DNA from: a bacterium ADurb.Bin236
GTDB taxonomy: Bacteria; UBP15; UBA6099
Direction of reading: 5' to 3'
Assembly (NCBI GenBank): GCA_002069885.1
Contig: MWCD01000040.1
Location: forward strand, 1 to 34,205
Length of the DNA: 34,205 nucleotides
The notes under the pieces are model-generated. The model ran no database searches, was not told the DNA's origin, and was given only the letters and a program-made list of their open reading frames with translations. Position 1 is the stretch's first letter; every line of letters begins with the position of its first letter. The translations under genes were made by a program, and so were the position numbers. Below, in pieces: positions 5,802-34,205 of this stretch.

Positions 5802-5847
5802 AATGCTTATGCGAATGTAAAGGTTATGGCAAGCAAGGGGCGTATCG

Positions 5848-11547: not shown

Positions 11548-11578
11548 GTCGTTGGGATATTGATGATTGGAGGGCAAA

Positions 11579-15834: not shown

Positions 15835-17346
15835 GTGATTCTCATCGCCTGCAACAGTATGGAAAGCATTACCGCGGCGGCGGCGCTGTTTCGTGTGCGC
15901 CCTGATGCGGAAATCCATATTACAAGCGCGGGTAAAGTTGAATGGTCTCTCAGTCAGATAAAGAACCGGAGAGACAAGGAACTCCACATCATCGGTCCTG
16001 GAATCTACTGCGAACCGGTGGACGTGTTCAATGAACTCAGAAGGCTTCAAGGCAAGGGGTGGCATATCAAATGGTATTTCACGGGACCATATCTTGAGCA
16101 ATTCCAAGATGAAATCCGAAAGTATGCGGATTTTATTCAACATGACAGTAAGAGCCTTATAGGTCTCGTTATCAAAAAAAATCAGATAACCGATCCGGTT
16201 TCATCCGCACTCTCCGATCTTATGGATAAGAAAGAGGGAGAAAGATTTGAATTCTACGCCGATCTGATTCATTCGAGCATCCAGAGGTATTTCAAGTTTC
16301 TTGACTATGACGCTGTTCCAAACATCATCGGGAAGATAGCCAACCCGGAGTTGATTTCCGACTCGGACAGAGCGGCTGCGTCAAGGCATCGTCGTTACGG
16401 ATCGAGGAGTCTCTCTGGCAAGAGCAGCTTGATTAAGGAATTGAAGCGGATGATAGGAAAGGTCGGGGACGACCCGTATTGCCGTGTTCTGATCATCGGT
16501 GAGACTGGAACTGGCAAAGAAACCGTCGCCAGACTCATTCACGAGTGCAGCCCGCGAAAAGAAGGCCCTTTCTTTGCGATCAGTTGCGCGAATCTCGATG
16601 AGAACCTCTTGGAGACAAAGCTCTTCGGACATGAAAAAGGGGCGTTTACCGGAGCGTTAGAGAAACGGCCCGGTGTTTTTGAGATGGCGGCCGGCGGAAC
16701 TCTCTTCCTTGACGAGGTTGCCGAAATGCCGCTTCAGTTGCAGCCCAGGCTCTTGAGGGTTCTTCAGGAAGGTTCTTTCATGCGCGTGGGAGGGTCGGAG
16801 GAAATCAAGGTAAATGTTCGCGTGATATCCGCGACCAACAAAGACATTATGATGGAAGTGAAAAAAGGACGATTCAGGGAAGACCTTTATTACCGGATTA
16901 ACGAAATCACCTTGAAAATACCCGCCTTGAGGGATCGCCCGGAGGATGTCAGCCCCATTGCAGAGGATATTCTTTACCGCCTTTCATTGGAACGAAATAA
17001 AGAAATACCGAGACTGAAAAAGAGCCAGATTGAATCATTGAAGAAATATTCATGGCCGGGGAATGTGAGAGAACTGGAGGGAGTTTTGTTAAGAGCCATC
17101 GTTCTGGGGGAGTGGAACTTTGATAAGATACTCAGTCATTCCATGATGGGGCCTTTGCCCGAAATCGACGTAGATAGAATCAAACCGCTCGCCGAGCATG
17201 AAATGGGGTATGTTTTGAGCATTTTTAACGCGCTTGGCGGAAACAAGACGAGGACCGCGAAGGTTCTCGGCATATCCTTGAACACGCTAAAACTTAAGCT
17301 TCAGCAGTATCAGTCTTTTTCGAAGGAGAAAAATTGCGATGCCTGA
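15835..17346 (+). CDS. Sigma-54-dependent activator with possible DHH-like sensor domain
   Basis: This 503-residue protein has a complete AAA+ sigma-54 activator core: Walker A GETGTGKE (K228), the sigma-54 contact loop GAFTGA (269-274), Walker B LFLDE (D293, E294) and a NVRELEG motif. It ends in a Fis-type helix-turn-helix (about 455-495; GGNKTRTAKVLGISLNTLKL). The N-terminal 185 residues replace the usual receiver or PAS domain. ILIACNSMESITAAAALF and ELHIIGPGIY resemble DHH phosphoesterases with the catalytic aspartates lost, so a nucleotide- or RNA-sensing role is possible, analogous to the CARF domain of RtcR. GTG 15835 follows GCGGGG. It overlaps the Mrr-like gene by 8 bases. The activator class is secure and the sensor assignment is tentative. 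Confidence 0.88.
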   Translation: MILIACNSMESITAAAALFRVRPDAEIHITSAGKVEWSLSQIKNRRDKELHIIGPGIYCEPVDVFNELRRLQGKGWHIKWYFTGPYLEQFQDEIRKYADFIQHDSKSLIGLVIKKNQITDPVSSALSDLMDKKEGERFEFYADLIHSSIQRYFKFLDYDAVPNIIGKIANPELISDSDRAAASRHRRYGSRSLSGKSSLIKELKRMIGKVGDDPYCRVLIIGETGTGKETVARLIHECSPRKEGPFFAISCANLDENLLETKLFGHEKGAFTGALEKRPGVFEMAAGGTLFLDEVAEMPLQLQPRLLRVLQEGSFMRVGGSEEIKVNVRVISATNKDIMMEVKKGRFREDLYYRINEITLKIPALRDRPEDVSPIAEDILYRLSLERNKEIPRLKKSQIESLKKYSWPGNVRELEGVLLRAIVLGEWNFDKILSHSMMGPLPEIDVDRIKPLAEHEMGYVLSIFNALGGNKTRTAKVLGISLNTLKLKLQQYQSFSKEKNCDA

Positions 17347-18322
17347 AAGGGACCGGAAAGCGTTTGTTCTTCGAGTCGCGCCAAGTGGCATAGACCGAGT
17401 ACCTGAAGCAATCGAAACGAACGAAATCATCATCGGATGGAGCGATGCATCGGAATTGATTGACGAGAGCCTCTCGTGGGAGGATTTTCGCGGTTTCATG
17501 CACAAATACTACTACGCCGAGGACAAGACATTCCGAAGATCAGGAGGCGCGTCAGGGAATATCTGGAAGTTCATCAGAGAGATGGGAGAAGGCGATCTTG
17601 TGGTCGTTCCACACGGCCCTGAATTCTATGTGGCGAGAGTGAAAGGTAAAGCGTACCATGATCCCAATAGAGTGAAGGACGACACTGCGTTCAGGCGACC
17701 GGTTGAATGGCTTAACGCAAAGAAACCGATACCAAGAAAATATGTGAATCTCGCGCTGAGATTGAGAATGAATATCCAGAATACATGCGCCGCCGCTGAC
17801 GACCTGATAGGCGAGATTGAAGAGGTGCTGAAAACCTGTGAAAAGGGAAAGGCGACTACATTTGAGCAAGACCTTCAACAGGGAATGGTGGAACGGGTTC
17901 TTAAGGAAATAAGAGAAGGAAAAATAAGCGACCGTGGCTTTGAAGAACTCGTGGCCCATGTTCTGACGAGGCTTGGCGCGAGGGATGTTAGGATAGTACC
18001 CAGAAATCTTGATAAGGGTGCCGATGTGATAGGGACGTTCTCTATTGCTGATACATTCAAATTTGTTCTTGCCGTTCAGGCTAAACACTATCAGCCGGTG
18101 CCTCCGGTCGGGAAATGGGTTGTGGATCAACTCATCAATGGCATGCAGGCTGAATCCGCCGATCTCGGATGGATTGTAACTTCCGGCTCATATTCCGAAG
18201 AGACTATAGGCTATGCGTCTGAGATCTGTGAACGTGATGGAATCAGAATAGAACTCATAGACGGCGAGCAGCTTGCCGCGCTGATCGTGGCGCATGGTAT
18301 GATAGACAGACCAAAGGAATAA
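17339..18322 (+). CDS. Mrr-like restriction endonuclease
   Basis: This 327-residue protein has a C-terminal Mrr-type PD-(D/E)xK domain. FEELVAHVLTRLGA starts at about residue 201, DKGADVIG supplies D229, and the catalytic Q-x-K is Q247-A-K249. A helical VGKWVVDQLINGMQAE and a GWIVTSG strand follow. Mrr-family enzymes cut modified or foreign DNA. The N-terminal 140 residues (GWSD..., SGNIWKFI, GDLVVVPHGPEFYVARV) resemble EVE/PUA-like or Mrr N-terminal recognition domains, which may read modified bases. The gene overlaps the activator by 8 bases and is 24 bases before the HD gene, so translational coupling is likely. I see no methyltransferase alongside. Confidence 0.85.
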   Translation: MPERDRKAFVLRVAPSGIDRVPEAIETNEIIIGWSDASELIDESLSWEDFRGFMHKYYYAEDKTFRRSGGASGNIWKFIREMGEGDLVVVPHGPEFYVARVKGKAYHDPNRVKDDTAFRRPVEWLNAKKPIPRKYVNLALRLRMNIQNTCAAADDLIGEIEEVLKTCEKGKATTFEQDLQQGMVERVLKEIREGKISDRGFEELVAHVLTRLGARDVRIVPRNLDKGADVIGTFSIADTFKFVLAVQAKHYQPVPPVGKWVVDQLINGMQAESADLGWIVTSGSYSEETIGYASEICERDGIRIELIDGEQLAALIVAHGMIDRPKE

Positions 18323-18346
18323 TGCGCGACGGCATAGGAGAATTGA

Positions 18347-18940
18347 ATGGATTACAGTGACCTGCTTGCTTTAATAAACGAGAGAAAAGAGTCTGTGTTC
18401 GAGTTCGACGAGTTCCTGAGAAAGGAAACCTCATGGCTTGAAGCTCCTGCTTCAACCCGCTTTCACCTGTCACGAAGCGGTGGCCTTCTTGAGCATTCCG
18501 TGAATGTAACGCGAATTCTGCTAAAGATAAAGATGTTACTCTCACCCGACATATCCGATGAAAGTTGTGTCATCGCCGGTCTATTTCATGATGTGGGAAA
18601 AGTCGGGCTTGCGGGCAAGCCGTATTACATTCCAAATACTGATAAATGGCAGATTCAGAATCGCGGCATACGATACGTGGTAAACAAAGATCTCGCGTAC
18701 ATGGATATTGCGACTCGAAGCCTTATGCTTGTATCCACCCATGTGCCGCTTAACGAGGATGAGGCTCAAGCCATTCGATATCATGATGGTTTATACGTCC
18801 CGGAAAATCAGGGCGTGGCGCATAAGGAAACGAGGCTGACCCGGCTTCTCCAGTATGCGGACAACTGGAGTGGCTGCGCGCTCGAAGACGAAAATGATTT
18901 GAACCATGCCACCGGGCAGGTCGATCAAGGAGAGATTTAA
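18347..18940 (+). CDS. HD-domain metal-dependent phosphohydrolase
   Basis: This 197-residue protein contains a complete HD set: H50 (GGLLEHSVN), H81-D82 (GLFHDVGKVG), H132, H146-D147 and D172 (LLQYADNWSG). The layout resembles cytoplasmic nucleotide or oligonucleotide hydrolases and stand-alone Cas3-like HD proteins more than a multi-domain signalling enzyme. In this operon it could degrade a nucleotide signal or nucleic acid, or tune the ligand sensed by the upstream activator. AGGAG lies six bases before ATG 18347. Its stop overlaps the next start (TAATG). Confidence 0.88.
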   Translation: MDYSDLLALINERKESVFEFDEFLRKETSWLEAPASTRFHLSRSGGLLEHSVNVTRILLKIKMLLSPDISDESCVIAGLFHDVGKVGLAGKPYYIPNTDKWQIQNRGIRYVVNKDLAYMDIATRSLMLVSTHVPLNEDEAQAIRYHDGLYVPENQGVAHKETRLTRLLQYADNWSGCALEDENDLNHATGQVDQGEI

Positions 18941-19944
18941 TGGTTTTTCGTGACAGAGAAAAGAAACGCTTGGTACCCTTGAAGCCAAGACTATTCAGCC
19001 CGGAAGCATGTGTTCCAGGCACATACCAGCGGAAAGAACGCGATTTTTGTTTGCACGATGATTACTCACATGAAAATATCCACCCAATTATCAGGAACAA
19101 CGCAATTCGTTACTTTTCGGAACGGGATATCCCATGGCACAAGGGCATAAATGGACGTCCAAGCAACCATCTCTGTTGTTCGCAGTGTTCATGTGTGAAC
19201 GCTTGGTTCCCTTTTATTGACAACCCTGACGCTCTTCTTAATGTGCTCAAGGGTATTGGATATCCCGCAAAGGAAGTGCTTCCATTTACTTCCGATGCTG
19301 ATATTCACAACGGCGAAAAACCTTTTTTGGTTTTTGAATGGATCGGCGACAAGAACTATCTCCATGAATTGCGTGGGGGTGTTCCGGCTGGTGATTCCGC
19401 CAGATCGCGAGGACAGAACTTCACAAGCGCGGACTTCTCATTCCGGTTCTTGAGAGACGATGGTAAAATACAGATCGTGCTTGGGGAGTGGAAATACACT
19501 GAAAACTACACTTGGGGGAAGAGTCTAAGAATAAGCGGAGGCAGGAAGGACCGTCTGGAAATCTATGGCCCCCATCTCGCTCATCAGGCTTGCCAGATCA
19601 GGCTTGGCGACATTGACCCCGACTGGCTTTTCTATGACCTTTTTGACCAGCTTATGAGGCTTCAACTGCTCGCATCAATGATGGAACATTTCCGCGAGAT
19701 GGACGCTGAGATAGTCACCACTCTTCACATCGTTCCAAGCGCGAACGATGAACTGATGGAAAGGATAACATCCCCCTGGCTCAAAGGGTTTGCAAAGGAT
19801 GTTCACGAGCTGTGGAATAGGCTCGTTCCCAACGGACGTTTTCATGGGCTTCACACTGAACAACTCCTGCCGTGTTTGGTCAGCAATGCTCCCGACAGGA
19901 ATTGGAGCGATTATTTGGTTGTCAGATATGGGGGCATGTCATGA
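18940..19944 (+). CDS. PGN_0703-like putative restriction endonuclease
   Basis: This 334-residue protein has a PD-(D/E)xK-like active site: SADFSFRF (D165), then IVLGEWKYTE with E183 and K185. The surrounding sequence, including the C-rich CCSQCSCVNAWF segment near residue 80 and an HLAHQACQIR helix, fits the PGN_0703 family of predicted restriction endonucleases. Its start overlaps the HD stop by one base, so it is the last gene of the unit from 15835. It is followed by the largest plus-strand gap of the region and a new promoter. The assignment rests on the motif pair and overall look. Confidence 0.68.
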   Translation: MVFRDREKKRLVPLKPRLFSPEACVPGTYQRKERDFCLHDDYSHENIHPIIRNNAIRYFSERDIPWHKGINGRPSNHLCCSQCSCVNAWFPFIDNPDALLNVLKGIGYPAKEVLPFTSDADIHNGEKPFLVFEWIGDKNYLHELRGGVPAGDSARSRGQNFTSADFSFRFLRDDGKIQIVLGEWKYTENYTWGKSLRISGGRKDRLEIYGPHLAHQACQIRLGDIDPDWLFYDLFDQLMRLQLLASMMEHFREMDAEIVTTLHIVPSANDELMERITSPWLKGFAKDVHELWNRLVPNGRFHGLHTEQLLPCLVSNAPDRNWSDYLVVRYGGMS

Positions 19945-19967: not shown

Positions 19968-19997
19968 TTAGAACACGGGCTTATTGTGGGTTATAAT
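19968..19997 (+). promoter_or_regulatory. Sigma-70-like promoter for the HEPN-Ig/CorA/PH unit
   Basis: A perfect TATAAT lies at 19992-19997. TTAGAA at 19968-19973 lies 18 bases upstream as a weak -35. The gap between genes (19945-20023) is the only clear break between the nuclease operon and the next three genes. Confidence 0.45.
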
Positions 19998-20023
19998 TAG
20001 AATTCAAATTTAAGAGGTGTCCA

Positions 20024-23000
20024 ATGGATGATTCAAAAACTTACCTCGAGACAGTGGCCGCCGAGTTTCCCGGACCAATCGCGAGAGCGGTCGAGAAGTG
20101 TTTGAATCCATCTAATGAAAATCGCGCCCACGAATTCATACGAATTGCATTTGAAATAGCCATGAGCTTTGTTGCATCCGTTGAGCTTGCCAGTTACCTC
20201 AAGTCGTCGCGCAAGGAGAAAGGAAGCATTGACCCAATAAACAAGGCGATTCAAGACACGGGTATGGAGATGACTTTGGGCAAATGGGCGTCAGTTCTTC
20301 AAACGCTTTCCAAAAACCTTGGGGATAAGCTCTATTTCAAGGAACTGGCGGCTGTCTACAAAAGCAACAACGAATATCTGAACGCCGTGAAATTTCTTAT
20401 CGAAGAACGCAACAGCGATGCGCATGGAGCGCCAATTCCCGAAGACAAATATAAGGAAGTCATCACCCGACGTATAAATGCTCTCATTACAGTTTTCAAA
20501 GGATTCGATTTCTTGAGGAAGCATGAATTCTTATCCCCAACGGGCGTAAAATTGGTTGATGGGGCGGCGGAGTATTCATTAACGTATTTTCGAGGTGTTC
20601 AATCCAATATGTTTTCCGGCAAGGTCACCGCTGGTTCCGATCAGGACACGATTCTTATAGATGGCGCTTATACACATCCAAGCGGAAAACCAGAAAACAT
20701 GATGTGTGTTCATCCATATCTCGCCGCCTTCAAAGAAGCGGGTTCCGACAAAATCGGCATTGGTGTGTTTAGTAGACCATCTGGTGGCCAGATGGGTATG
20801 AGGTATATTGATTCTGAAAGATTCTGGGATGTCAGTGACAGTACCATCGACGGATATTCTTCTCGACCTGAGTTGGTTAGAGAATTCCGAAGCCACCTTG
20901 AATTGCTTGGAATGGTTGAAAAGAGAAGACCTCGGATCGCGGTTTCTTGTGACATTAAAAAGAATATCTTTGACCTCAAAAAGGGTAAGACGGACGATAT
21001 TGAATTGGTTTTGAAAGCGACAAATATGGGCGAGCTTTATGCCGAGAATGTGAAGGTTCGTATTCCCTTGCCATCGGGAGTAAAAGAATCATCGACCGGA
21101 TTGCAGGAGGTTTTGTGGGAAATCGACAGCCTTAGTTGCGACAAAAAGAGCATCCCCCAGACGTTCAGAATCTTCTCTGAGTCTACAGGCCAGATTATTT
21201 TACCAGATGGTTTTGTGAGTTATTCATATGCGCCGGACGATTCAGGTGGAGATTCTGATGAGCAACCCACTGAGACAGAAGCGACCACAATAGAAATTGA
21301 GGAAACGGTTTATTCTGGACTGAGTTTTTTAGTCAAAGACCCATTGAGCAAAGACCCCTTAAGACCGCTGATGACAACTTCGATGACAGTCGAGCCTAAT
21401 CCGGTAAGACTTGGGCAACCTGTCATCGTAAGCTTCAGGCTTAAAAATGTTGGAAGTTCAAAGGCACATGATGTTCATTTTCGCGTCGTATCACCTGACG
21501 CTCTTAAAAACAAAACCGGCTCGGAATCTTTCAGCGGAGAAATCAAATCTGGTGAATGCGAAGATATCAAGATTGTTTATGACGCCGTTAGACATGGGGT
21601 AATGGAGCTTATTTGTACCGATATTACCTATTCTGACGGGCAGGGAAACCACTATGTGTGTGATGATCCCGGTAGAATGCCTTTATTTATCAAGCACAGC
21701 GACGAGGAAGAAATCCGGCTCAATCTGAGAAATATTTGGATGGATATGAGCCTCGATGCGGAAGAAAGAGAATTGTTTGATGAAATGCGAAAGACTGCGG
21801 TGTCCAAGGGAATCTTTACCGATGCGACTCTTGATACGGTAGTGAGAAATATAAAAATTGAAAACCTTCAAGGTATTGTAGAAGCAGTTGGAAAGAGGAA
21901 AGGATTTACAGTAGTTCCCAAGCCGCTGAAGAACGCCCTATGTTTTGAGATATCAGAGAAGCAGCTACCCTTCGCAGTTATCGATACCACGAACCCGCTG
22001 AATATCTTCTTGTGGCTTGGATGCAGTTTTCCAAAAGGACAGTTAGATAAGTCACCTTATATTGAAATGAAACTGAATCCATTCGGTTTTCGGCAAATAC
22101 CATTGAACACGTGTATCAATATAAACATGCTTGCCGAAGTAAAAGAGCCTAAAAGGTCTGCGGCTGATATTCTTGATGGATGGATAGAGAAATCAATTGA
22201 CTGCATGACCATTGATTTACTTCCAATAAAGAATGCCTTGACCAAGGTGATTTCCTCTGCGTGGCAAAATATTCCCAGCCCTGTAGTTCAATACGATGTA
22301 AAAGGATTTGAAGTTTCTAACACGTGGAGCCAGCAGTTGATGGATCGCACCGGCTTACGCTGTCTCTATGCTGTTTCAGATTTCAAAGACCCGAGCAAGC
22401 TGCATTTGCTTTCCTATCCAGGAAAGATGTCCGGCCTCAAGAATTACATGAGAGACTGGTGGCGCTTGCAACCAGATGATTTTTTACATAGTGATTATCC
22501 CAATCCACATGGATCAGACATTGGCGGTTACAAAATTGAACCGGCGGCACAAGGCGGATTCTTCATTGTTGAAAAAGACATTCAGCCTGATAGCCAACCC
22601 TCGTACATTGAGCGGTTTATCGCTAAATCAATAAATCAGATACAGCTTTTCAAGGCTTTTTCTTGGATGGACGGTTGCGGATTGGCTGCGGGAGCCAGCG
22701 TTGACATTTCCGCTGCTAAAAGGATTCTTAAGGAAATGCTCGATGAAGACCCAGGCATTATTTTGTACACCGATCCCAAGTGGGGGCTTTATGTATATGC
22801 AGATCTTCGGTCATTTTCTAATGCTGTTGAAGAGGCCGCGCATATTGGGACTGAAGGTAAATTAAAAAAGGCGTTTTTCAGGATTACTGACCCCATGAGT
22901 ATTCCTGAACCGATGAAACAAGATATGGATTTACATGATTATCATTACCTGTCCAGATATTGGACAAAACAAAAAGAGATTGCGTCATTGGACGATTTTA

Positions 23001-23392
23001 CATGGATTAAAGAGTATGCGCTGGTGGCCTCACGCACCATTAGAAATAAACGTGTGGCTTCGTGGACGCGCGGCGCCCTTGAAATACTTCTGAATAAAAC
23101 GTTGGGCGGCCACAGAACTTATCTGTTGATGATGAGGTCATTTTCATTGCAGGAAGACGATGCTTTTATCTCCCTTCTGGAGGTCGAAAGCGGTCTCAAG
23201 GCGCAATACCCGGATATCTACCCCGAAAAGAAGGGAACAAAGGGCGAAAGAAGATATATCTCTAGAGCATGTAATCAGCCAATGCGAGAGCAACTTCTTG
23301 AGTATGACTATTCTGATTGGCCGAACATCAAAATACGAATCAATCCCGAATATAGGGAATCAGTAAAAGATACACTCGCGGATGTGCAATGA
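20024..23392 (+). CDS. Large cytoplasmic protein with HEPN-like N-terminus and two Ig-like domains
   Basis: This 1122-residue protein starts at ATG 20024, five bases after AAGAGG. It has no signal peptide or membrane segment. Residues 1-165 are helical and contain R129-x4-H134 (EERNSDAHG), the RxxxxH motif of HEPN RNases. Two Ig-like beta domains follow: near 305-405 (VLKATNMGELYAENVKVR) and near 447-555 (MTVEPNPVRLGQPVIVSFR, then LKNVGSSKAHDVHF). They resemble DUF11 and CARDB folds, which are usually extracellular. The remaining roughly 560 residues are not recognised. Its close neighbours are a CorA-like membrane protein and a zinc-ribbon/PH protein 18 and 20 bases apart, so the three probably work together. 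A toxin or sensor role is inferred. Confidence 0.65.
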   Translation: MDDSKTYLETVAAEFPGPIARAVEKCLNPSNENRAHEFIRIAFEIAMSFVASVELASYLKSSRKEKGSIDPINKAIQDTGMEMTLGKWASVLQTLSKNLGDKLYFKELAAVYKSNNEYLNAVKFLIEERNSDAHGAPIPEDKYKEVITRRINALITVFKGFDFLRKHEFLSPTGVKLVDGAAEYSLTYFRGVQSNMFSGKVTAGSDQDTILIDGAYTHPSGKPENMMCVHPYLAAFKEAGSDKIGIGVFSRPSGGQMGMRYIDSERFWDVSDSTIDGYSSRPELVREFRSHLELLGMVEKRRPRIAVSCDIKKNIFDLKKGKTDDIELVLKATNMGELYAENVKVRIPLPSGVKESSTGLQEVLWEIDSLSCDKKSIPQTFRIFSESTGQIILPDGFVSYSYAPDDSGGDSDEQPTETEATTIEIEETVYSGLSFLVKDPLSKDPLRPLMTTSMTVEPNPVRLGQPVIVSFRLKNVGSSKAHDVHFRVVSPDALKNKTGSESFSGEIKSGECEDIKIVYDAVRHGVMELICTDITYSDGQGNHYVCDDPGRMPLFIKHSDEEEIRLNLRNIWMDMSLDAEERELFDEMRKTAVSKGIFTDATLDTVVRNIKIENLQGIVEAVGKRKGFTVVPKPLKNALCFEISEKQLPFAVIDTTNPLNIFLWLGCSFPKGQLDKSPYIEMKLNPFGFRQIPLNTCININMLAEVKEPKRSAADILDGWIEKSIDCMTIDLLPIKNALTKVISSAWQNIPSPVVQYDVKGFEVSNTWSQQLMDRTGLRCLYAVSDFKDPSKLHLLSYPGKMSGLKNYMRDWWRLQPDDFLHSDYPNPHGSDIGGYKIEPAAQGGFFIVEKDIQPDSQPSYIERFIAKSINQIQLFKAFSWMDGCGLAAGASVDISAAKRILKEMLDEDPGIILYTDPKWGLYVYADLRSFSNAVEEAAHIGTEGKLKKAFFRITDPMSIPEPMKQDMDLHDYHYLSRYWTKQKEIASLDDFTWIKEYALVASRTIRNKRVASWTRGALEILLNKTLGGHRTYLLMMRSFSLQEDDAFISLLEVESGLKAQYPDIYPEKKGTKGERRYISRACNQPMREQLLEYDYSDWPNIKIRINPEYRESVKDTLADVQ

Positions 23393-23409
23393 TACACTAG
23401 GAGTTTATA

Positions 23410-24837
23410 ATGAGCGAACAACAATCATACCCATCTCTCAAAAATCATTTTACGCGCTTCTGTTATCCGTTTCTTTTCGAGAAAAAAGAATACGGCAAGC
23501 TTCGCAACAGATTATCTTCCCTATCTGGTATCACGGAAGTATTGAACGATCCTCATAACGAGGACTGGAAAGCGAGAAGCGAGTATTTTCTCCCTCCCTT
23601 ACGAAGAATATGGTACCCCCATTTTCTTCTAAAAGGCCATCTTGTTGATGTCGATGATCCATCTGATATTATCTGCCATTTCAAATATGACGTGGGAGCT
23701 ATAGACCTTATTAAGGGCTCAACCTTGTCCGTATCGAGCAAGTTCTTTGATCCCATTCCAATTGTGATCAGAACTGCTTCTATCACAATCTCATATCTTG
23801 GAATAGGGTTTTTAACTTTCGAGATAGCGATTAATGATACGAATCCAACCTTCGACAAGCTGCTCAATTTAAATTCATCATTAAGAATGATGAACAACAA
23901 GAATACATCCATAATAACAGACGGTGGAGCAAGTTTCTCGATGGCCGAATTGCTTGATTCTGTTTTAGACAAGTTTCGTGACGCGCTTGGCTGGTCCGAT
24001 GTAAGCTCAACGACAGAGGGTGTAGAATTGTTCGGTCACTTGAACGACATTTATTATGATCGCGTATTGTGTTTTTCTTATGCCTGTATTGATGCGGATA
24101 TTTACAATCGTCTCGAAACTGATTTCGTCAAATACTGGCAATACTGGCCGCCTAACGTAGATTCCATCCTGAATGACGACCCTGACAAAGAATTCGGTTT
24201 TGACAGATGGAACTACCATTTTTCAATGTGGAAGCATGCGATATATGGTTTTTCAAAAGAAGGCGGCGTTGTATTTTCAAGCGCATGTGACAGCTTTAAC
24301 GAACATGTGCTGCCAAACTACTTTGGAACATACTACTACGATATCTTCCTTATAGCCGTCATGCAAAGAATGATATTACTGAGAATAAACAGAGAGCTTT
24401 CAAATTCAGAAAAATTGAGCGGCATCGATAAAAAGGCATATAATAGAAATCTGGCATTAAGAAGAGATTTGTTGGAGTTTGTAAACAAGTGCGTTTTTAC
24501 CCAGTGTTCAAACTATGAACTCGGTCAACTAATATGGCACCGCTGGAAAATTGTTTTTGAAATGGAAAATCTGCTTGATGAAGTAAAGAACCAGTGTGAA
24601 GAGCTGTCTAATTACATGGAAGTGCGCCGACAGATGCTCGTGGGCAATTTCATGAACATTCTTTCTTTCTTTGTAATACCTGTATCATTGATACTCTCTC
24701 TATTCGGGGCTAATTTTATCGAGTTTGAAAAGCTATCTGTGAAGAGTATTCTTGTCTGGTTCTCTTTAATCATTACCTTTGTAGCCGCTGGGATTACATG
24801 GATATGGCTGTACAGAAAAGAGAAAACGAATCAATAA
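23410..24837 (+). CDS. CorA-like two-helix membrane protein, possible effector
   Basis: This 475-residue protein has a soluble N-terminal region of about 400 residues without a recognised domain. A helical stalk (ENLLDEVKNQCEELSNYMEV) then leads into two C-terminal membrane helices near 416-438 and 447-467. A LFGANF loop replaces the usual GMN motif of CorA Mg2+ channels. This soluble domain, stalk and two-helix layout matches CorA-type channels, including those used as membrane effectors in some anti-phage systems. The lost GMN motif argues against normal Mg2+ transport. It is 18 bases after the HEPN-Ig gene and 20 before the zinc-ribbon/PH gene. AGGAG precedes ATG 23410. Confidence 0.72.
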   Translation: MSEQQSYPSLKNHFTRFCYPFLFEKKEYGKLRNRLSSLSGITEVLNDPHNEDWKARSEYFLPPLRRIWYPHFLLKGHLVDVDDPSDIICHFKYDVGAIDLIKGSTLSVSSKFFDPIPIVIRTASITISYLGIGFLTFEIAINDTNPTFDKLLNLNSSLRMMNNKNTSIITDGGASFSMAELLDSVLDKFRDALGWSDVSSTTEGVELFGHLNDIYYDRVLCFSYACIDADIYNRLETDFVKYWQYWPPNVDSILNDDPDKEFGFDRWNYHFSMWKHAIYGFSKEGGVVFSSACDSFNEHVLPNYFGTYYYDIFLIAVMQRMILLRINRELSNSEKLSGIDKKAYNRNLALRRDLLEFVNKCVFTQCSNYELGQLIWHRWKIVFEMENLLDEVKNQCEELSNYMEVRRQMLVGNFMNILSFFVIPVSLILSLFGANFIEFEKLSVKSILVWFSLIITFVAAGITWIWLYRKEKTNQ

Positions 24838-24856
24838 CTGTGATAAAGAGGAATTC

Positions 24857-27442
24857 ATGAATTGCAATAAGTGCGGGAAGCAGATAGCGCCAGATGATAA
24901 ATATTGCACCACGTGTGGGAGCCAGATCATCGCAGAAGAGATTGATCCACCCCCGACAATTATGCATTGTAAATCGTGCGGCGGTTCAGTTGGTGGTGAC
25001 GACAGCTTCTGCATGCATTGTGGCTCTGCGGTTACGGATGCATCTATCGTTGTTACTGGCGATATGACTTCAGCCACGAACACAAATGTCTCAAAAGCAA
25101 TATCATTCAAATTATCTGAAAGGCTTGTGAGATTGAACGCTCCCGCGAACAGGGTGTCGTATGTGAATAAATATCCAGATATATCTGCATTGACGCCCGG
25201 CGCTGCAGTAATGCTCAATGCAAAATGCAGAGACCGGATTATCTCGCAGCTACGCAATGTCAAGAGGTTTGAATATGGGACGATCTGTCTTGTAACATGG
25301 GCGGTTGGAATAACCTCTCAGCTTGACGATTTGTTGATAGCCACAGATCGATACATTCTGATTTATGACAGAAGCGCAAGTGCGGACATATTAAAACCCA
25401 GTGTAGTCATTTCTTTACATGAAATAAGTGAGATAATACATGAGAAGAGTCTGCTTCAAATAAATCGAATAATCTTCAAGGTCGGTTCCAACAACACTGT
25501 TATTCATATCGGGGTCGGACCACCAATTGAGGAGTTCGCCTACTACCTTTCCATATTGAGCGGAAATGCGCAGTCGCAAACCGGGAATGTTGGAGAAGTA
25601 ACAACTCCCTTCACACCCCAACCATCAGTTTCTGTCATGTCACAGCAGCATTCAGAAAATGCTTCGGTTGCTGATGTTTACTCAAGCAGGTATCCTGATA
25701 TTCCTGTATTGTCAAAAGAAGCGATAGTGATGCTTGATATCTGGTGCAGAGAAAAACTTCTCAACCAACTTAAGCTTCTCAGATCTTTTCGATTTGGAAC
25801 CATACGTCTTCTGATATGGAATGTTGGCATCGGAGAACTCGAGGGCGGATGTCTTGTTGGAACAGACACACATTTACTCTATTACAGAGACAGAAAATCG
25901 GCAGATCTAAGCCTGCCCAGCTTGACTTTTCCGCTAAACGAGATGTGTTATTGGGGAAGCAACGAGGCGGACACAACCACTATAACGTTTGCGGACGGTG
26001 ATTTGCCGCTTTTAACTGGAGCAACCGATTGCCACAATGCACTCAACTTGTATCTTTCAAGATTCAACGAAGATTTCTCAAAAAGAAAACAGAATTTTGA
26101 AATACTGAAGGAAACCATTCGTGGCATAGGCGGAATGACATTCAAGGAGGAACAGACATCTGATGAAGAAGACGCGCTGCTCCAGGAATCCTTGATAAAC
26201 ATATTGACTCTTCATAATATGTGCTTCCCAATGGACTTGGTGCTTATGAAGGCTCTAAAACTCGCCATAAATGAACTTTTTGAGGATCGGGAAATTACAC
26301 CCGGTGAAGAGAAGGTCATTCTGGTTCTGATGAGAGAGAATGTTAAGCAGCCTTATGACAATTACGACACATTGAAGGAAATATTCAGACTCTGGGAACT
26401 TGCGCTCTTAAACAGCGGATACCTCAGACCATATAGAGATGTGGAGATAAGCACGCATGGCGAACTGATATATGGGTACGCAAAATGTAGGATTATTGAA
26501 AGGAAAATCGTCACCGAACGAGTTACTGGACATGCTGGCATTTCAATACCACTTACCAAAGGGAGAGGGCCGAGAATATATTTAGGTGGCTCGAAGCCGT
26601 ATTCTTTCCAAAAAGAAGTGGATGTGGTTTATGGTACTGGCGAATTATTGATAACCGACAAGAAGCTTTTATTTGTTTCGGGGCAAAACACTTTTGATCT
26701 GAGATTGAGTTACATTCATGACATCTCGGCATATAAAGACGGATTCAAACTGGCAACTTCAAAAAAACAGAGGAATTTCACTTATATTTTGGGCGATTCT
26801 GATACGACAGAAGAATTTCTCACAATATTGCGCCGGGTTCTTTCTGGGGATTACTGTACAGACAAGAATAAGCTTCAAGAGATGTATGGCATGTGGCATG
26901 ATTTTCGCGCACTTTTTCTCAGGGCTGAGATGCAAAAACGCCTTGGCAAATGGATCGACATGGACAGCGACTCCCTTGAATACGTAGAAAAAGACCCGAT
27001 TCCTGGAACCAAAGAGCAGCAGATAACGGCAATCTCAGAGCAATTACTGAAGGACATGGTCAAGACGGCGGGGCCAGAAGTACAGGAAAGATACGAAAAA
27101 ATGATGAGTGGAAAGACTGATGTTGAAAACGAATTGGATACGGCAGTCGCTAAGGACGAAACCGAAGAAAAGAACGCAGTAGATAATGCGTTGGCTTCAA
27201 ATGTGCTTCGACAAATAATCGCGGATTTCTTTTTAAATCAGATCAAGAAGCATCCTGAGATCGCAATAACGGAAGCAAAATATCAGGAATTCATTGTGCA
27301 GGGATTGCTTCCAAGATTGAAGGAAATTGACAACCACCGGGACTGGGAAAAGGAGTTGTTGGAATACCGTAAAACGTGTTTCTCATTCGTTGATGGTAAA
27401 CTTCAATTGTCTCAGGAAAGTATTGGTTTCTGGACTGTTTGA
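24857..27442 (+). CDS. Zinc-ribbon protein with repeated PH/GRAM-like domains
   Basis: This 861-residue protein begins with two zinc ribbons: C3, C6, C17, C20 and C38, C41, C52, C55. Two related segments follow (about residues 100-235 and 270-395), each with RYPDI- or KYPDI-like starts, a CR(D/E)(R/K) helix and F(E/R)(Y/F)GTI. They end in PH/GRAM-like strands (LLIATDRYILIYDR; CLVGTDTHLLYYRD). A helical stretch and a third PH-like domain (GTGELLITDKKLLFVSG) follow near 590-670. A helical C-terminus of about 190 residues closes it. PH/GRAM domains bind lipids or proteins, so it may tether a complex to the membrane near its CorA-like neighbour. This is the last gene of the unit and faces the minus-strand genes. 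Confidence 0.72.
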   Translation: MNCNKCGKQIAPDDKYCTTCGSQIIAEEIDPPPTIMHCKSCGGSVGGDDSFCMHCGSAVTDASIVVTGDMTSATNTNVSKAISFKLSERLVRLNAPANRVSYVNKYPDISALTPGAAVMLNAKCRDRIISQLRNVKRFEYGTICLVTWAVGITSQLDDLLIATDRYILIYDRSASADILKPSVVISLHEISEIIHEKSLLQINRIIFKVGSNNTVIHIGVGPPIEEFAYYLSILSGNAQSQTGNVGEVTTPFTPQPSVSVMSQQHSENASVADVYSSRYPDIPVLSKEAIVMLDIWCREKLLNQLKLLRSFRFGTIRLLIWNVGIGELEGGCLVGTDTHLLYYRDRKSADLSLPSLTFPLNEMCYWGSNEADTTTITFADGDLPLLTGATDCHNALNLYLSRFNEDFSKRKQNFEILKETIRGIGGMTFKEEQTSDEEDALLQESLINILTLHNMCFPMDLVLMKALKLAINELFEDREITPGEEKVILVLMRENVKQPYDNYDTLKEIFRLWELALLNSGYLRPYRDVEISTHGELIYGYAKCRIIERKIVTERVTGHAGISIPLTKGRGPRIYLGGSKPYSFQKEVDVVYGTGELLITDKKLLFVSGQNTFDLRLSYIHDISAYKDGFKLATSKKQRNFTYILGDSDTTEEFLTILRRVLSGDYCTDKNKLQEMYGMWHDFRALFLRAEMQKRLGKWIDMDSDSLEYVEKDPIPGTKEQQITAISEQLLKDMVKTAGPEVQERYEKMMSGKTDVENELDTAVAKDETEEKNAVDNALASNVLRQIIADFFLNQIKKHPEIAITEAKYQEFIVQGLLPRLKEIDNHRDWEKELLEYRKTCFSFVDGKLQLSQESIGFWTV

Positions 27443-27962: not shown

Positions 27963-28376
27963 TCAGCGTTTCATTGCATCAGCGTTTTTCAGCCAGTTGC
28001 CTGTTGCTATGGGAGTGAAATCCAATCGTAATCTGGACTTTGGATACACGTAGACCCATGCACGAACAGTCTTGCGGCTGTTGAGTATTGTTACAGCTTT
28101 TCCAACCCTAATGTAGTGGTTCTGGTTGTCTCCCGGACGATATCCTTCTAGACTGTCGAGACGTTCCAGCGTCTTTTTGATGTCCGGGAATGTCATAACC
28201 TCGCCGAAGACCTGGCCGTCGGGCGCGTCGAACATCGCGGGGAATCCATAAGGAAGATGGTACAGCCGCCCATTTGTGAAGGCGGGCTCGATGGTGAGCG
28301 CGTCACCACAGAAGCGGTCGTGATTTGCCATCCCTTCCTTCAAGGTTCCGTAAACAAAGACGTGTTTTATAGCCAA
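27963..28376 (-). CDS. Gamma-glutamylcyclotransferase-like (AIG2/GGCT) protein
   Basis: A GGCT-fold domain is evident from the N-terminal VFVYGTLKEG motif, the GEV strand and LDSLEGYRP, which carries the expected catalytic Glu. These enzymes cyclise gamma-glutamyl or gamma-glutamylamine units to 5-oxoproline. The best start is TTG at 28376, nine bases after AAGGAG. It overlaps the amidotransferase stop by 10 bases and gives 137 residues. An ATG at 28571 would overlap the upstream gene by 205 bases and add an unlikely N-terminus. In amidoligase gene sets, GGCT-like enzymes are thought to remove or trim amide-linked glutamyl groups. Confidence 0.82.
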   Translation of the reverse strand: MAIKHVFVYGTLKEGMANHDRFCGDALTIEPAFTNGRLYHLPYGFPAMFDAPDGQVFGEVMTFPDIKKTLERLDSLEGYRPGDNQNHYIRVGKAVTILNSRKTVRAWVYVYPKSRLRLDFTPIATGNWLKNADAMKR

Positions 28377-29137
28377 GACATTGTGCTCCTTCCGTTTGAA
28401 CTGAAATACAAATCCGTCTGTCGGAAATCCATCAGGTCGGCGGTGTTGAACACCGACATGGTGAAAAGATCGACATCCAGCCGCACGATGCTCCGACTCA
28501 TCCCGATAACTCGTGTGAGTGGCCATTCCTCGGAAGAGTAGAACACTGCCCGGAAATCTCTGTGATACCACAGGGTCAGCGGCTTGTTGCCTTTTATGAC
28601 CAGAACCGTATCAGGCGCCGATGAGCGCGTGAAAACGGAGGACATGCCGCCACGGACGTCCCTGATGCAAACCTCGAAGTCCTCGATGCTTTCTTTCTTG
28701 TCCGCAAGTCGAAATATAAACTCGCTGTCGGTCTCGGCGGCGCGGCGCAGCCGGTATCTTTTGAAAAGCCGGTCGGCATTCAGGATGGTCCCGTTGTGAG
28801 TTCCGATGACCGCGCCGGCGCGGATCGGCTGATTGTTCAGGCTGTTCGCTTCCGTGCCGCGCGTCTTCCAGCGGGTGTGCCCGAGGATGCAGGTTGTCCC
28901 GTTATCGAGCCGCCCCATGATCTCGGCATATTTCTCTTCAATGACCAGCTTCGCCGCGGGTCCCGGACGCTTGCAAAGCGAGTATGTGCCATCGCGTCGA
29001 ATCATGGCGAGACCGGCGGCGTCCTTCCCGCGCGCCTGGTTGAGCAGAAGTAGTTCGGTAAAGATGCGACCGATTTCTTCAAGTTCCGCCTTCCGGCGTC
29101 TTTTTGTCTGGAGGATTACACCCGTCAAACCGCACAT
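28367..29137 (-). CDS. Stand-alone class II glutamine amidotransferase
   Basis: This 256-residue Ntn hydrolase starts MCGLTGV, with C2 as the presumed nucleophile after Met removal. It also has LGHTRWKTRG and GTHNGTI, which form the glutamine-binding and oxyanion region in PurF/GlmS-type amidotransferases. It lacks the partner synthase domain of GlmS, PurF or AsnB, so it probably supplies ammonia to, or hydrolyses amides for, another enzyme of the operon. An AAGAGG site lies before ATG 29137. The GGCT gene overlaps its 3' end and an amidoligase remnant lies at the head of the operon, so it likely belongs to a glutamine- or amide-based modification pathway. Confidence 0.88.
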   Translation of the reverse strand: MCGLTGVILQTKRRRKAELEEIGRIFTELLLLNQARGKDAAGLAMIRRDGTYSLCKRPGPAAKLVIEEKYAEIMGRLDNGTTCILGHTRWKTRGTEANSLNNQPIRAGAVIGTHNGTILNADRLFKRYRLRRAAETDSEFIFRLADKKESIEDFEVCIRDVRGGMSSVFTRSSAPDTVLVIKGNKPLTLWYHRDFRAVFYSSEEWPLTRVIGMSRSIVRLDVDLFTMSVFNTADLMDFRQTDLYFSSNGRSTMSWL

Positions 29138-29150
29138 TTTGATTCACCTC

Positions 29151-29594
29151 TTAAAGATTTATCCTGTCGCACTCTTCTCCCTGCCACACCTTGGCGTGTC
29201 CCAGCATTTTCATGAGCGCGGCGGCTTCCTGCATGGACTTGCCGTCGTAATTGCGTATCTCAACCGTCCCGCCCGCCGTTCTGTAGAGAAATTCCAGCGC
29301 CTTGTATGCCTCCCAGAATTTCGCTTCCGGAGCGTCGTTCATGTAGAGAATGTTCTGCTTATTCGTCACCGTTCTGTCCGGCCCCGGTGTCCCGGCATAG
29401 ATGACCGACGTGATATTCCTGTTCGCCAGCCGCTTCGACATGATGCGCCGGACGTGGTTCCATTTCGGAAGCGAGAAATCCACGATCATGAAGAGCGACT
29501 CGCCCTTGGACTCGTCAATCGTGATAATCGGGTTCAGTTTCTGTTGCAGGTTCTGAAGGTTGTGCGGCGCGTTCCGCTTTTTCTTATTCGACAT
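29151..29594 (-). CDS. Conserved-looking operon protein, function unknown
   Basis: This 147-residue soluble protein has an N-terminal basic and Gln/Asn-rich stretch. A predicted alpha/beta part follows (SLFMIVDFSLPKWNHVRRIM; NITSVIYAGTPG), with a C-terminal helix-rich end. It starts at ATG 29594 with GGAG six bases before it, overlapping the upstream gene by 11 bases. It ends 13 bases before the amidotransferase. I do not recognise the family. Tight spacing suggests a role in the amidoligase/amidotransferase pathway. Confidence 0.7.
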   Translation of the reverse strand: MSNKKKRNAPHNLQNLQQKLNPIITIDESKGESLFMIVDFSLPKWNHVRRIMSKRLANRNITSVIYAGTPGPDRTVTNKQNILYMNDAPEAKFWEAYKALEFLYRTAGGTVEIRNYDGKSMQEAAALMKMLGHAKVWQGEECDRINL

Positions 29595-29799
29595 TCCGTT
29601 CTCCTTCCGCTTTGTTTTCCGGCCCGGCGATTCCGGCTTTCTCCTTCATATAGGAAATCCACGCCTGGCGTTTCATGCCCATGGCTTTGTGAATGTCCGT
29701 TTTCGTAAGAACGCCGAGCCGCCGGAACTGCCCCATGACCACATAGCAGTTCTCGTCCTCAATGAAACGAGCGATTTTATTGATGGGGTCGTCATCCAT
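29584..29799 (-). CDS. Small operon protein, possible helix-turn-helix
   Basis: This 71-residue protein starts at ATG 29799 behind GGGAGG. The segment LGVLTKTDIHKAMGMKRQAW reads like a short helix-turn-helix, but it is too short to be sure. It starts two bases after the upstream stop and overlaps the downstream start by 11 bases, so translation is probably coupled. The function is unknown. Confidence 0.65.
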   Translation of the reverse strand: MDDDPINKIARFIEDENCYVVMGQFRRLGVLTKTDIHKAMGMKRQAWISYMKEKAGIAGPENKAEGERNVE

Positions 29800-29801
29800 G
29801 C

Positions 29802-30044
29802 CTACACCTCCCGCGCGAGTCCGCGTTCAAGAAGCTCGCTTACGAGCGACCGCGCCAGTTCCTCGTCCGTGTTTCCCTTTACGGTCAGTTCGACGTTCTC
29901 CACCATCTTCGCGTTGCGAAGCACCATGTCCACGTATTCGCGGATGGTCTTCACGTCCGAGAACATCGTGGAGCCTTTCATTTGTGCGACGATTTTCATC
30001 GGTGACCCGCTGAATTTCTCGCCGTCCCGCAGTTCGATACGCAT
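29802..30044 (-). CDS. Small operon protein, function unknown
   Basis: This 80-residue protein begins MRIELRDGEKFSGSP. The start at 30044 is chosen because AAAGGAGG lies eight bases upstream; an earlier in-frame candidate at 30080 has no such site. A C-terminal helix (DEELARSLVSELLERGLARE) follows a predicted beta part. The acidic, helix-ended layout is typical of small proteins in phage-like operons. No domain is recognised. Confidence 0.7.
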   Translation of the reverse strand: MRIELRDGEKFSGSPMKIVAQMKGSTMFSDVKTIREYVDMVLRNAKMVENVELTVKGNTDEELARSLVSELLERGLAREV

Positions 30045-30066
30045 TGCAACCGCCTCCTTTCGCAAT

Positions 30067-30291
30067 TTACGCCAACCCAATCGGATGTGACGCGCTATGT
30101 ACGCTCAGGTCGATCATTCCTTCGAGGAGATCGCCCGATTTAAAGCATCGCGGACAGACCGGTATGTCGACGACCTGTCCGCCATGCTCGAGCCGGATAA
30201 AAAACCCGCCGCGCTCGAACGGCTCCCGGCAATGACCGCATGTGAATCTGTTGTTGTATGGGTTCTTTCCGAATTTCACCCTGATTCTCAT
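30067..30291 (-). CDS. Small zinc-ribbon protein
   Basis: This 74-residue protein (from ATG 30291) has two CxxC pairs, CGHCREPF and CPRCFKSG, separated by about 28 residues, which is a zinc-ribbon layout. GGAGG lies eight bases before ATG 30291. An alternative GTG at 30309 would overlap the amidoligase stop as GTGA. It may bind nucleic acid or a partner protein. It immediately follows the amidoligase remnant in the operon. Confidence 0.72.
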   Translation of the reverse strand: MRIRVKFGKNPYNNRFTCGHCREPFERGGFFIRLEHGGQVVDIPVCPRCFKSGDLLEGMIDLSVHSASHPIGLA

Positions 30292-30305
30292 TCCGATGTC
30301 CTCCG

Positions 30306-30593
30306 TCACGCCGCCTGTTCGTTTGGTCGGCGTCCGTTCTTGAATGCGCTGTCGCCTTCGAGGTTTGCGAGCAGGTGCTGCCGCGCCGTCTTGAAATCGT
30401 CGCCGATGAGTCCCAGACCGAGCAGGAACACCCGGAAATCATATTTGCTGCTGATGGAGTTCAGGTCGCGTTTGCGGCTGCTCGCCGCGTTGCTGTTGAT
30501 GGCTTTCGCCCCGAGCGCGAGACAGAATTGAATGTATGATTTGATTTTTCCGGCGTGGAGCGTTCCGTTGAAATATCGATTATGAGAAGCTTT
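30306..30593 (-). pseudogene. Amidoligase C-terminal remnant, truncated at the RIT element
   Basis: A 95-codon minus-strand frame ends at TGA 30308-30306 and is cut off upstream by a TGA at 30596-30594, just inside the RIT left boundary. It begins with a [18 protein letters not shown] motif, which resembles the end of Amidoligase_2 domains (EFR-x-F-x-GTL...K). Then come [18 protein letters not shown] and [17 protein letters not shown]. With a glutamine amidotransferase, a GGCT and a zinc ribbon downstream, this is best read as the 3' end of an amidoligase gene. These ATP-dependent ligases join amines to carboxylates of proteins or peptides. The 5' part should lie beyond the RIT, outside this window. 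Confidence 0.65.
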
Positions 30594-30603
30594 TCATAAC
30601 CGG

Positions 30604-30636
30604 TATTATGCACAGCAACGAATTATGCGCAGCCGC
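30604..30636 (+). repeat. RIT left inverted terminal repeat
   Basis: The left 33-bp repeat matches the reverse complement of 34170-34202 at every base. It carries two similar cores, TTATGCACAG (30606-30615) and TTATGCGCAG (30623-30632), in direct orientation 17 bases apart. These may be paired recombinase-binding sites. Confidence 0.92.
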
Positions 30637-30750
30637 TTCACCTCCTCCCTGTCAGGGATGAGTTTGCTCCACATCTTTTACAAGTCAACAATCATTCGAG
30701 AATACAGAGAATTCGCGGGATGCGCGTGAAAATATTCCCCAGCAAATTTA

Positions 30751-30760
30751 CTTTGCATAA
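30751..30760 (-). other. Internal inverted copy of the RIT core site, left side
   Basis: CTTTGCATAA is the reverse complement of the terminal-repeat core TTATGCACAG with one mismatch. It lies about 140 bases inside the left end, between the repeat and the first recombinase start. The mirror copy at 34106 is exact. Confidence 0.5.
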
Positions 30761-30815
30761 TTCCGGCATAACAAAAATCCGCCGACCGGGGCAAACCGGT
30801 AGAAAGGGGTACGTT

Positions 30816-32120
30816 ATGCTGGAGAACTATTTCATCAGTCCGCAGACGTTGCGATGGCTGCGGGTGGGTCCATTGGGGCCGCACATGGATGGCATCGCGG
30901 AAAAATTCAGAGAAGGTTCATACTCACGATGGACCGCGAGGGAGCTTTTGCGGGGCGCCGGGCATTTCAGCCGGTATGCAATGTGGGTCGGAGTCGCTGA
31001 TGCGGCAGATATCACATCGGCGCTCGCCGAGAAATTTCTGACAGAGCACATTCCGACATGCTCTTGTCAGCGTCCTAACAAAGGGACGTTCAATAATGAC
31101 CGCGCCGCGGTAACACACGTTTTTTCGTACCTGAAAGCTAACGGCATCATCACTGAAGAGCAACCTGTAATAGCCGATGATCCGATTCGGACTATGCTCG
31201 ATGCGTACTGCGAGCATCTGAGAAGCATCCGGGGACTCGCGCCAAAATCCATCGGCCTTCACAACCGTATCATCGGGGAATTCCTCGAACAAAGAGTTGA
31301 AACGCGCGGCACTCTTGCCCTTGAAAAACTCACAGGGAAAGACGTGCATGATTATCTGCTCATCACGATGCCAACACGCAAATCGCTCGATTGGCGCAAA
31401 AGCCTCACACATAGCATGCGTTCATTCCTGCGTTACTTGAGATGGGAACGCATCGTCGAAAATGATCTGGCGCGGACAGTCCCCGCCGTACTCCATTGGA
31501 AACTGGCCGATGTGCCGCGCCACATTCCTTTCCACGACATAGAAAAACTGATCGCTGCGCCTGACACATCCACCAGCATCGGAAAACGAGACCGGGCGAT
31601 ACTGATGCTGCTTGGAATGCTGGGATTGCGGGCCGGGGAAGTCGCCGCCCTGCGACTGGACGACATCAACTGGCGTCTAATGCAGATCAGAATTCCGGAG
31701 GGAAAATCAAAGCGAGAACGCGTGCTGCCACTGTCGCCGGAAATTTGCGCGGCGCTGTATGACTACGTGAAGAATGGCCGTCCGCAGACGAGATACCGCG
31801 AATTGTTTCTACGCACGAGAGCGCCTTTGAGACCGCTTGCAGGCTCCGGTTCGTTTGTTTACATCGTTTGCCGATACATACAGGCCGCCGGGATCGACGC
31901 CCCGAAAAAGGGCACACATCTTTTGCGACACAGCCTCGCAACAAAACTCGTGAATTCGGAAGTGCCCATCAAGGATATCGCCGACATCCTCGGCCATTCC
32001 AGTGTTCAGACCACGATGATTTACACGAAAGTTGATACGCACCGGCTGAGAAATGTTGCGATGCCGTTTCCCGGCATGTGCGAGCGCGGCAAACAAAAAT
32101 CAGCAGAAGGGAGCGTCTGA
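30816..32120 (+). CDS. RIT tyrosine recombinase A
   Basis: This 434-residue tyrosine recombinase has a SAM-like N-terminal DNA-binding region and a catalytic domain. R272 lies in LGLRAGEVAAL, HLLRH gives H368, R371 and H372, and LGHSS gives H394. The nucleophile is Y403 in MIYTK. The preferred start is ATG 30816, behind AAAGGGG; an upstream ATG at 30720 would run across the internal repeat. It is the first and largest of the trio. Confidence 0.92.
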   Translation: MLENYFISPQTLRWLRVGPLGPHMDGIAEKFREGSYSRWTARELLRGAGHFSRYAMWVGVADAADITSALAEKFLTEHIPTCSCQRPNKGTFNNDRAAVTHVFSYLKANGIITEEQPVIADDPIRTMLDAYCEHLRSIRGLAPKSIGLHNRIIGEFLEQRVETRGTLALEKLTGKDVHDYLLITMPTRKSLDWRKSLTHSMRSFLRYLRWERIVENDLARTVPAVLHWKLADVPRHIPFHDIEKLIAAPDTSTSIGKRDRAILMLLGMLGLRAGEVAALRLDDINWRLMQIRIPEGKSKRERVLPLSPEICAALYDYVKNGRPQTRYRELFLRTRAPLRPLAGSGSFVYIVCRYIQAAGIDAPKKGTHLLRHSLATKLVNSEVPIKDIADILGHSSVQTTMIYTKVDTHRLRNVAMPFPGMCERGKQKSAEGSV

Positions 32121-32121
32121 G

Positions 32122-34094: not shown

Positions 34095-34105
34095 AGCGGG
34101 GAAAA

Positions 34106-34115
34106 TTATGCACAG
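34106..34115 (+). other. Internal copy of the RIT core site, right side
   Basis: TTATGCACAG is an exact copy of the outer core of the left terminal repeat. It lies in the 75-base gap between recombinase C and the right repeat. Together with 30751 it gives each end an outer and an inner site in opposite orientation. Confidence 0.6.
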
Positions 34116-34169
34116 TAATTATCGTGAACATGCTGTGAGGGCGCCACCGAACGCCGCCGCAAATAAAAT

Positions 34170-34202
34170 GCGGCTGCGCATAATTCGTTGCTGTGCATAA
34201 TA
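34170..34202 (-). repeat. RIT right inverted terminal repeat
   Basis: The right 33-bp repeat is a perfect reverse complement of 30604-30636, with cores CTGCGCATAA (34174-34183) and CTGTGCATAA (34191-34200). The next three bases end the window. Confidence 0.92.
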
Positions 34203-34205
34203 TCG

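Follow-up and report, generated by a model that had tools for sequence, protein, structure and literature searches.

A three-gene operon without Cas10 that encodes a relative of the CRISPR CorA effectors, known from one locus

Two papers on CorA effectors (PMC10600005, PMC12669027) place them in type III CRISPR loci, where they are activated by SAM-AMP or by a ligand that is not known. A CorA-like gene of the bacterium ADurb.Bin236, placed between genes for a HEPN-like/Ig-like protein and a zinc-ribbon protein, raises the question of whether such an effector can serve in an operon that has no Cas10, and what would then turn it on. We examined the three genes, P1, P2 and P3, in their window, the whole 34,205-nucleotide stretch of DNA that was analysed (contig MWCD01000040.1, assembly GCA_002069885.1). 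The locus encodes a protein of the CRISPR CorA effector family within an operon that lacks Cas10, an arrangement seen so far at this single place. We tentatively favour, at a little less than an even chance, the reading that the trio is a Cas10-independent anti-phage operon of the abortive type with a CorA membrane effector, its defensive role being assigned by association.

Layout of the operon

P1, P2 and P3 are three large open reading frames on the same strand. The features that we refer to below are as follows.

19992..20019, + strand: TATAAT box and Shine-Dalgarno-like AGAGGTG 5' of P1, read from the sequence
20024..23392, + strand: P1, 1122 aa; HEPN-like helical region at the N-terminus, then two Ig-like (DUF11) segments and a C-terminal part of ~560 aa
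20408..20425, + strand: codons of R129-N-S-D-A-H134, candidate HEPN active site, at a helix end and in the following loop
20984..21133, + strand: Ig-like DUF11 segment 1, P1 residues 321-370 (Pfam DUF11 E=6.9e-5)
21386..21601, + strand: Ig-like segment 2, P1 residues about 455-526 (TIGR01451 E=0.065; phmmer match to a repeat protein)
23410..24837, + strand: P2, 475 aa; CRISPR-type CorA-like membrane effector (PADLOC, Pfam)
23884..24063, + strand: P2 R159-M160 to Y216-D217-R218, probable counterparts of B. fragilis CorA R152-R153 and D219-D220
24634..24816, + strand: TM helix pair of P2 (residues about 409-435 and 441-469); GAN (433-435) occupies the GMN loop position
24857..27442, + strand: P3, 861 aa; zinc-ribbon/repeat/TerB-GRAM-like protein
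24863..25024, + strand: double zinc ribbon with eight Cys, P3 residues 3-56 (Pfam DZR E=2.8e-7)
25160..25945, + strand: tandemly repeated domain, P3 residues 102-190 and 275-363 (local alignment score)
26246..26842, + strand: TerB-like helical and GRAM/bPH_3-like segment, P3 residues 464-662
28056..30575: 2.5-kb module of gamma-glutamyl cyclotransferase, class-II amidotransferase and further ORFs, starting about 0.6 kb downstream of P3

An earlier note on this DNA had the three reading frames and their coordinates right; the gaps between them, which it gave as 18 and 20 bases, are 17 and 19 nt. It also gave the trio one promoter. P1 does have a perfect TATAAT (19992-19997) and a good ribosome site in front of it, but the -35 is poor, and transcripts could read through from the operon upstream, whose end is 79 nt from P1. 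The promoter scan did not report the TATAAT site. One promoter shared by P1, P2 and P3 is, from the sequence, a plausible but weak proposal. Matches in a sigma-54 promoter scan were no commoner than chance, and an Rfam search returned none. Since the GC content of roughly 4-28 kb (40-50%) is below that of both flanks (51-55%), the trio lies in a low-GC island.

P2 and the type III CRISPR CorA effectors

The profile matches of P2 put it in the CRISPR CorA effector family and not with the transporters, which strengthens the idea that it is a CorA effector. The PADLOC type III CRISPR CorA effector profiles PDLC01043 (E=8.3e-33, residues 147-452) and PDLC01174 (E=6e-21) both match it, and Pfam CorA reaches 20.4 bits, below its gathering cut-off of 27. 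By hydropathy, the C-terminus consists of two hydrophobic TM helices, and the protein reads G433-A434-N435 where CorA transporters read GMN, in keeping with its first description as a two-helix CorA-like protein without that motif. A low-confidence AlphaFold model (pLDDT 48) has a long stalk helix (368-435) and a second TM helix (444-473), an arrangement typical of CorA. The fold search with this model returned solved CorA and Mrs2 structures at Z 4.2-4.9, within noise, and otherwise generic helical bundles; PDB sequence searches with the three proteins, with segments of them and with the CorA profile gave no meaningful match.

These data also bear on a transporter reading, in which P2 moves divalent cations and the operon has a role in metal or stress homeostasis. 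The CorA-type C-terminal region and the 20.4-bit Pfam score are what one would expect of it, and one P2 relative (L010) lies between MFS and NMT1-like genes. However, the Pfam score is below cut-off, GMN is absent, the CRISPR effector profile is a far better match, and the setting is a defence island. We reject P2 as a Mg transporter, and consider the wider transporter reading very improbable.

The closest known counterpart is the type III-B CorA of B. fragilis, a SAM-AMP-binding protein that type III-B immunity requires and that has some toxicity of its own (PMC10600005). P2 shares with it, besides the profile match (E=8e-33), a large soluble N-terminal part, a long stalk helix and two C-terminal TM helices. 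The B. fragilis gene stands with cas genes, whereas P2 is encoded with P1 and P3. Neither the Cas10 palm (PF22335) nor RAMP (PF03787) had a match in the source genome, which is 92.6% complete, so the usual activator of CorA is not in sight. No NrN, DHH, DEDD or SAM-AMP lyase partner, as would accompany a type III-B CorA, was found among the neighbours of P2 or in the operon; an RNase_H_2 protein at 11567-13051 follows other genes and is not beside P2.

The ligand site gives a mixed picture. Immunity in B. fragilis depends on two residue pairs of CorA, R152-R153 and D219-D220 (PMC10600005). We mapped these columns through an alignment with other family members, in which the B. fragilis sequence was not included. 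They read R-M and Y-D in P2. Its nearest relatives have R-L and D/E-D there, and two further relatives (L011 and L012) have R-R and D-D/E. With one residue of each essential pair kept (R159, D217), P2 probably retains half of the proposed SAM-AMP site.

The nearest relatives of P2 are CorA-like proteins of the same family, which a profile search found in 7 of 386 diverse genomes, the source genome included. Two relatives, L012 and L015, sit in CRISPR loci, L012 adjoining an RT-Cas1 gene; L011 carries a long N-terminal extension that we read as NrN/DHH-like. P2 itself groups with a set of four (L013, L014, L045 and L046; tree support 89/90, phmmer E 1e-30 to 1e-35), which are solitary genes whose products bear an N-terminal C-x2-C...C-x4-C zinc finger. 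These closest relatives differ from P2 in having the zinc finger fused to CorA and in standing alone, without P1 or P3. Cas10 is found on other contigs in three of the four genomes of this clade. The genes lie at 9711-11420 (L013), 4725-6332 (L014), 9439-11163 (L045) and 2466-4019 (L046) of their loci, and the clade occurs in four of the five genomes of one phylum, two of them named Myxococcota MAGs. A genome-wide pattern scan with the CorA alignment returned only two Myxococcota MAGs, both already among the relatives.

The main rival to a Cas10-independent operon is that P2 is gated by a nucleotide, with P1 and P3 only modulating it. This small molecule would come from a different enzyme, either a Cas10 whose contig is missing from the assembly or a synthase encoded elsewhere than in the trio. 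The half-site R159 and D217, with the neighbouring R218, speaks for this, as do the solitary relatives whose genomes carry Cas10 on other contigs (G133, G386 and G387). The ligand of the III-D CorA is itself not known (PMC12669027). Against these points stand the source genome, in which no Cas10 or RAMP was detected, the operon, with no NrN, DHH or SAM-AMP lyase, and the equivalents of R153 and D219, which are M and Y. Nucleotide gating is a reading that we hold to be unlikely, though not to be dismissed.

Domains of P1 and P3

P1 was first described as a HEPN-Ig protein. HEPN RNases carry R-x4-6-H at the end of helix 3 of a four-helix fold, with a polar residue after the R (PMC3710099). The R129-x4-H134 of P1 is real and follows this pattern as R129-N130-x3-H134. 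In a model of low confidence (mean pLDDT 44), it spans the last residues of a predicted helix (103-131) and the loop that leads to helix 140-166. The RNxxxH motif alone is weak evidence, since its frequency in 99,471 residues of other ORFs corresponds to 0.18 per 1122 aa. Pfam HEPN_RiboL-PSP matches below threshold (E=0.021, 15.1 bits vs a cut-off of 28.4), and the fold-search listing for the P1 model held generic helical bundles only, HEPN structures being absent from it. The HEPN RNase claim therefore stands as regards the motif and its placement, which fit, but the profile match is below its cut-off and the fold search did not single out HEPN; a HEPN domain in the N-terminal region is a probable prediction from the sequence. 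Unlike the described HEPN RNases, P1 joins this region to Ig-like repeats and to a C-terminal region without a known match.

The Ig-like character of P1 was borne out by the nearly significant DUF11 match of segment 1, which falls narrowly short of the Pfam cut-off. For the last 560 residues there is no match, and no TM segment was found in either P1 or P3.

The zinc ribbon of P3 is confirmed by a significant Pfam DZR match. We could not, however, uphold the claim of three PH/GRAM-like segments, as only the third has GRAM-like relatives and the first two are copies of another domain. Segments 1 and 2 align with each other at a local score of 176 (shuffled sequences, 28 +/- 4, maximum 41); they have no Pfam match and do not resemble segment 3. 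For residues 464-662 the alignments are with bacterial TerB-like and GRAM/bPH_3-like proteins (L039-L042, E about 1e-5 to 1e-8), and Pfam bPH_3 gives E=0.15 for segment 3. These relatives join a stretch DxxLxPxEExEL to a stretch GxLxLTxKRLxFxG, patterns that we read as TerB-like and GRAM-like, respectively; they lack the double zinc ribbon and the tandem repeat of P3. P3 thus contains, by sequence, one probable GRAM-like segment and two copies of another domain. A weak exfoliative-toxin match of P3 in the PDB search (E=0.86) was discarded as chance.

Conservation, defence setting and a possible mechanism

Conservation of the three-gene order had been named beforehand as a refuting test of the system, and no second locus was found. 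The order P1-P2-P3 had no other instance in the phylum, in 386 diverse genomes, in plasmids, phages and viral contigs, or at the P2-family loci examined, and at those loci no P1 or P3 homologue lay beside the CorA relatives. Full-length relatives of P1 were absent from plasmids, phages, viral contigs, the phylum and several hundred diverse genomes, with weak local matches only in the seven-genome phylum and the 386 genomes. Full-length relatives of P3 were absent from plasmids, viral contigs and several hundred diverse genomes. Nothing was returned by tblastn searches of plasmids with all three proteins and of phages with P1, or by scans of viral contigs with P1, P2, P3 and the CorA alignment, and P1 and P3 matched none of the PADLOC 2023 defence models. 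With no second instance of the gene order, the case for a system is left to operon structure and context. The failed conservation weakens that case, but it fits a rare system and chance cargo alike, and the phylum is thinly sampled (seven genomes).

We therefore weighed whether P1, P2 and P3 are independent cargo gathered in a defence island and not one system. A gene order found nowhere else and P2 relatives that are solitary or CRISPR-linked would suit such an origin. Against it, the same-strand gaps of 17 and 19 nt are too short for separate promoters outside coding regions, and the zinc finger fused to CorA in the clade of P2 relatives hints weakly that CorA and zinc modules cooperate. We regard independent cargo as improbable, more so than nucleotide gating.

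The context is defensive. The island upstream of the trio, all on the + strand, runs from a SWIM-type protein through a Sacsin/TmtA-like protein (TmtA-like, E=3e-65) and a Cas4-like/RNase_H_2 nuclease to an HTH regulator and then the next operon. The first three stand in a row at 4695-13051, the Sacsin/TmtA-like protein having 1899 aa and a NOV_C end. At 15835-19944, directly upstream of the trio, an RtcR-like sigma-54 activator is followed by an Mrr-type nuclease, an HD protein and a REase-ARP nuclease, a candidate second defence operon. A large ORF at the left end of the window contains three direct copies of a 258-nt unit at 309 nt spacing (2006-2881).

Downstream of P3, the prophage-end module at 28056-30575 occurs at four places in the source genome and three in two related genomes, that is, in six further copies, most of which are followed by an amidoligase gene and by tail genes that we read as prophage-type. 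On the other side of the module, copy L059 is flanked by genes for a type IIG restriction enzyme and an HKD/SNF2 helicase, L060 and its orthologue L062 by DpdE/DrmD-like and DrmMI genes, and L063 by BREX PglZ and BrxL; alongside L058 and L061 no defence genes were recognised. Four of the six further copies (three of them independent) thus border restriction, DISARM/Dpd-like or BREX genes on the side where the trio lies here. Because different copies border these different systems, the place adjoining the module is a recurrent defence-gene site, and this recurrent position is, in our analysis, the best independent argument for the trio being defensive. Island content and homologous positions in other loci together support the defence setting. 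Three tandem tyrosine recombinase genes (30720-34094) follow the module in a recombinase-in-trio (RIT-like) element (30601-34205) that ends exactly at the contig end; inverted repeats of 36 nt, 97% complementary, flank it at 30601-30636 and 34170-34205. Similar recombinase trios are present at 12479-15934 of L059 and 10838-14068 of L062.

For the Cas10-independent anti-phage operon that we favour, we envisage the following mechanism. P1 would most likely act as the sensor: a component of the invader would bind to its Ig-like repeats and large C-terminal part, and its HEPN-like head would cleave RNA once activated. P3 may act as a cytosolic adaptor whose zinc ribbons would bind protein or nucleic acid and whose GRAM-like segment would contact the membrane or another protein. 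P1, together with P3, would release or gate P2. P2, the presumed killer, would form a CorA-type oligomer that responds through its cytoplasmic domain to P1/P3 or another ligand and opens in the membrane. Sensing, RNA cleavage, the gating and opening of the channel, and the cooperation of P1, P2 and P3 are what we infer; the gene order, the domain homologies, the missing Cas10 and the defence context are what we observed. The complete scheme, in which a CRISPR-type CorA channel works here without CRISPR and is turned on by the HEPN-Ig protein P1 via the zinc-ribbon protein P3, combining RNA cleavage with membrane opening, is appreciably more doubtful than the Cas10-independent operon as such. 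Of the new membrane-disrupting system that the earlier note envisaged, the CorA effector and the defence context hold, but a conserved trio and three PH domains do not.

If the proposal is true, a CorA channel can be wired to a sensor other than Cas10, and the trio would help to reveal how CorA is gated, a question that PMC10600005 and PMC12669027 leave open, and would add a HEPN-Ig-based candidate defence system.
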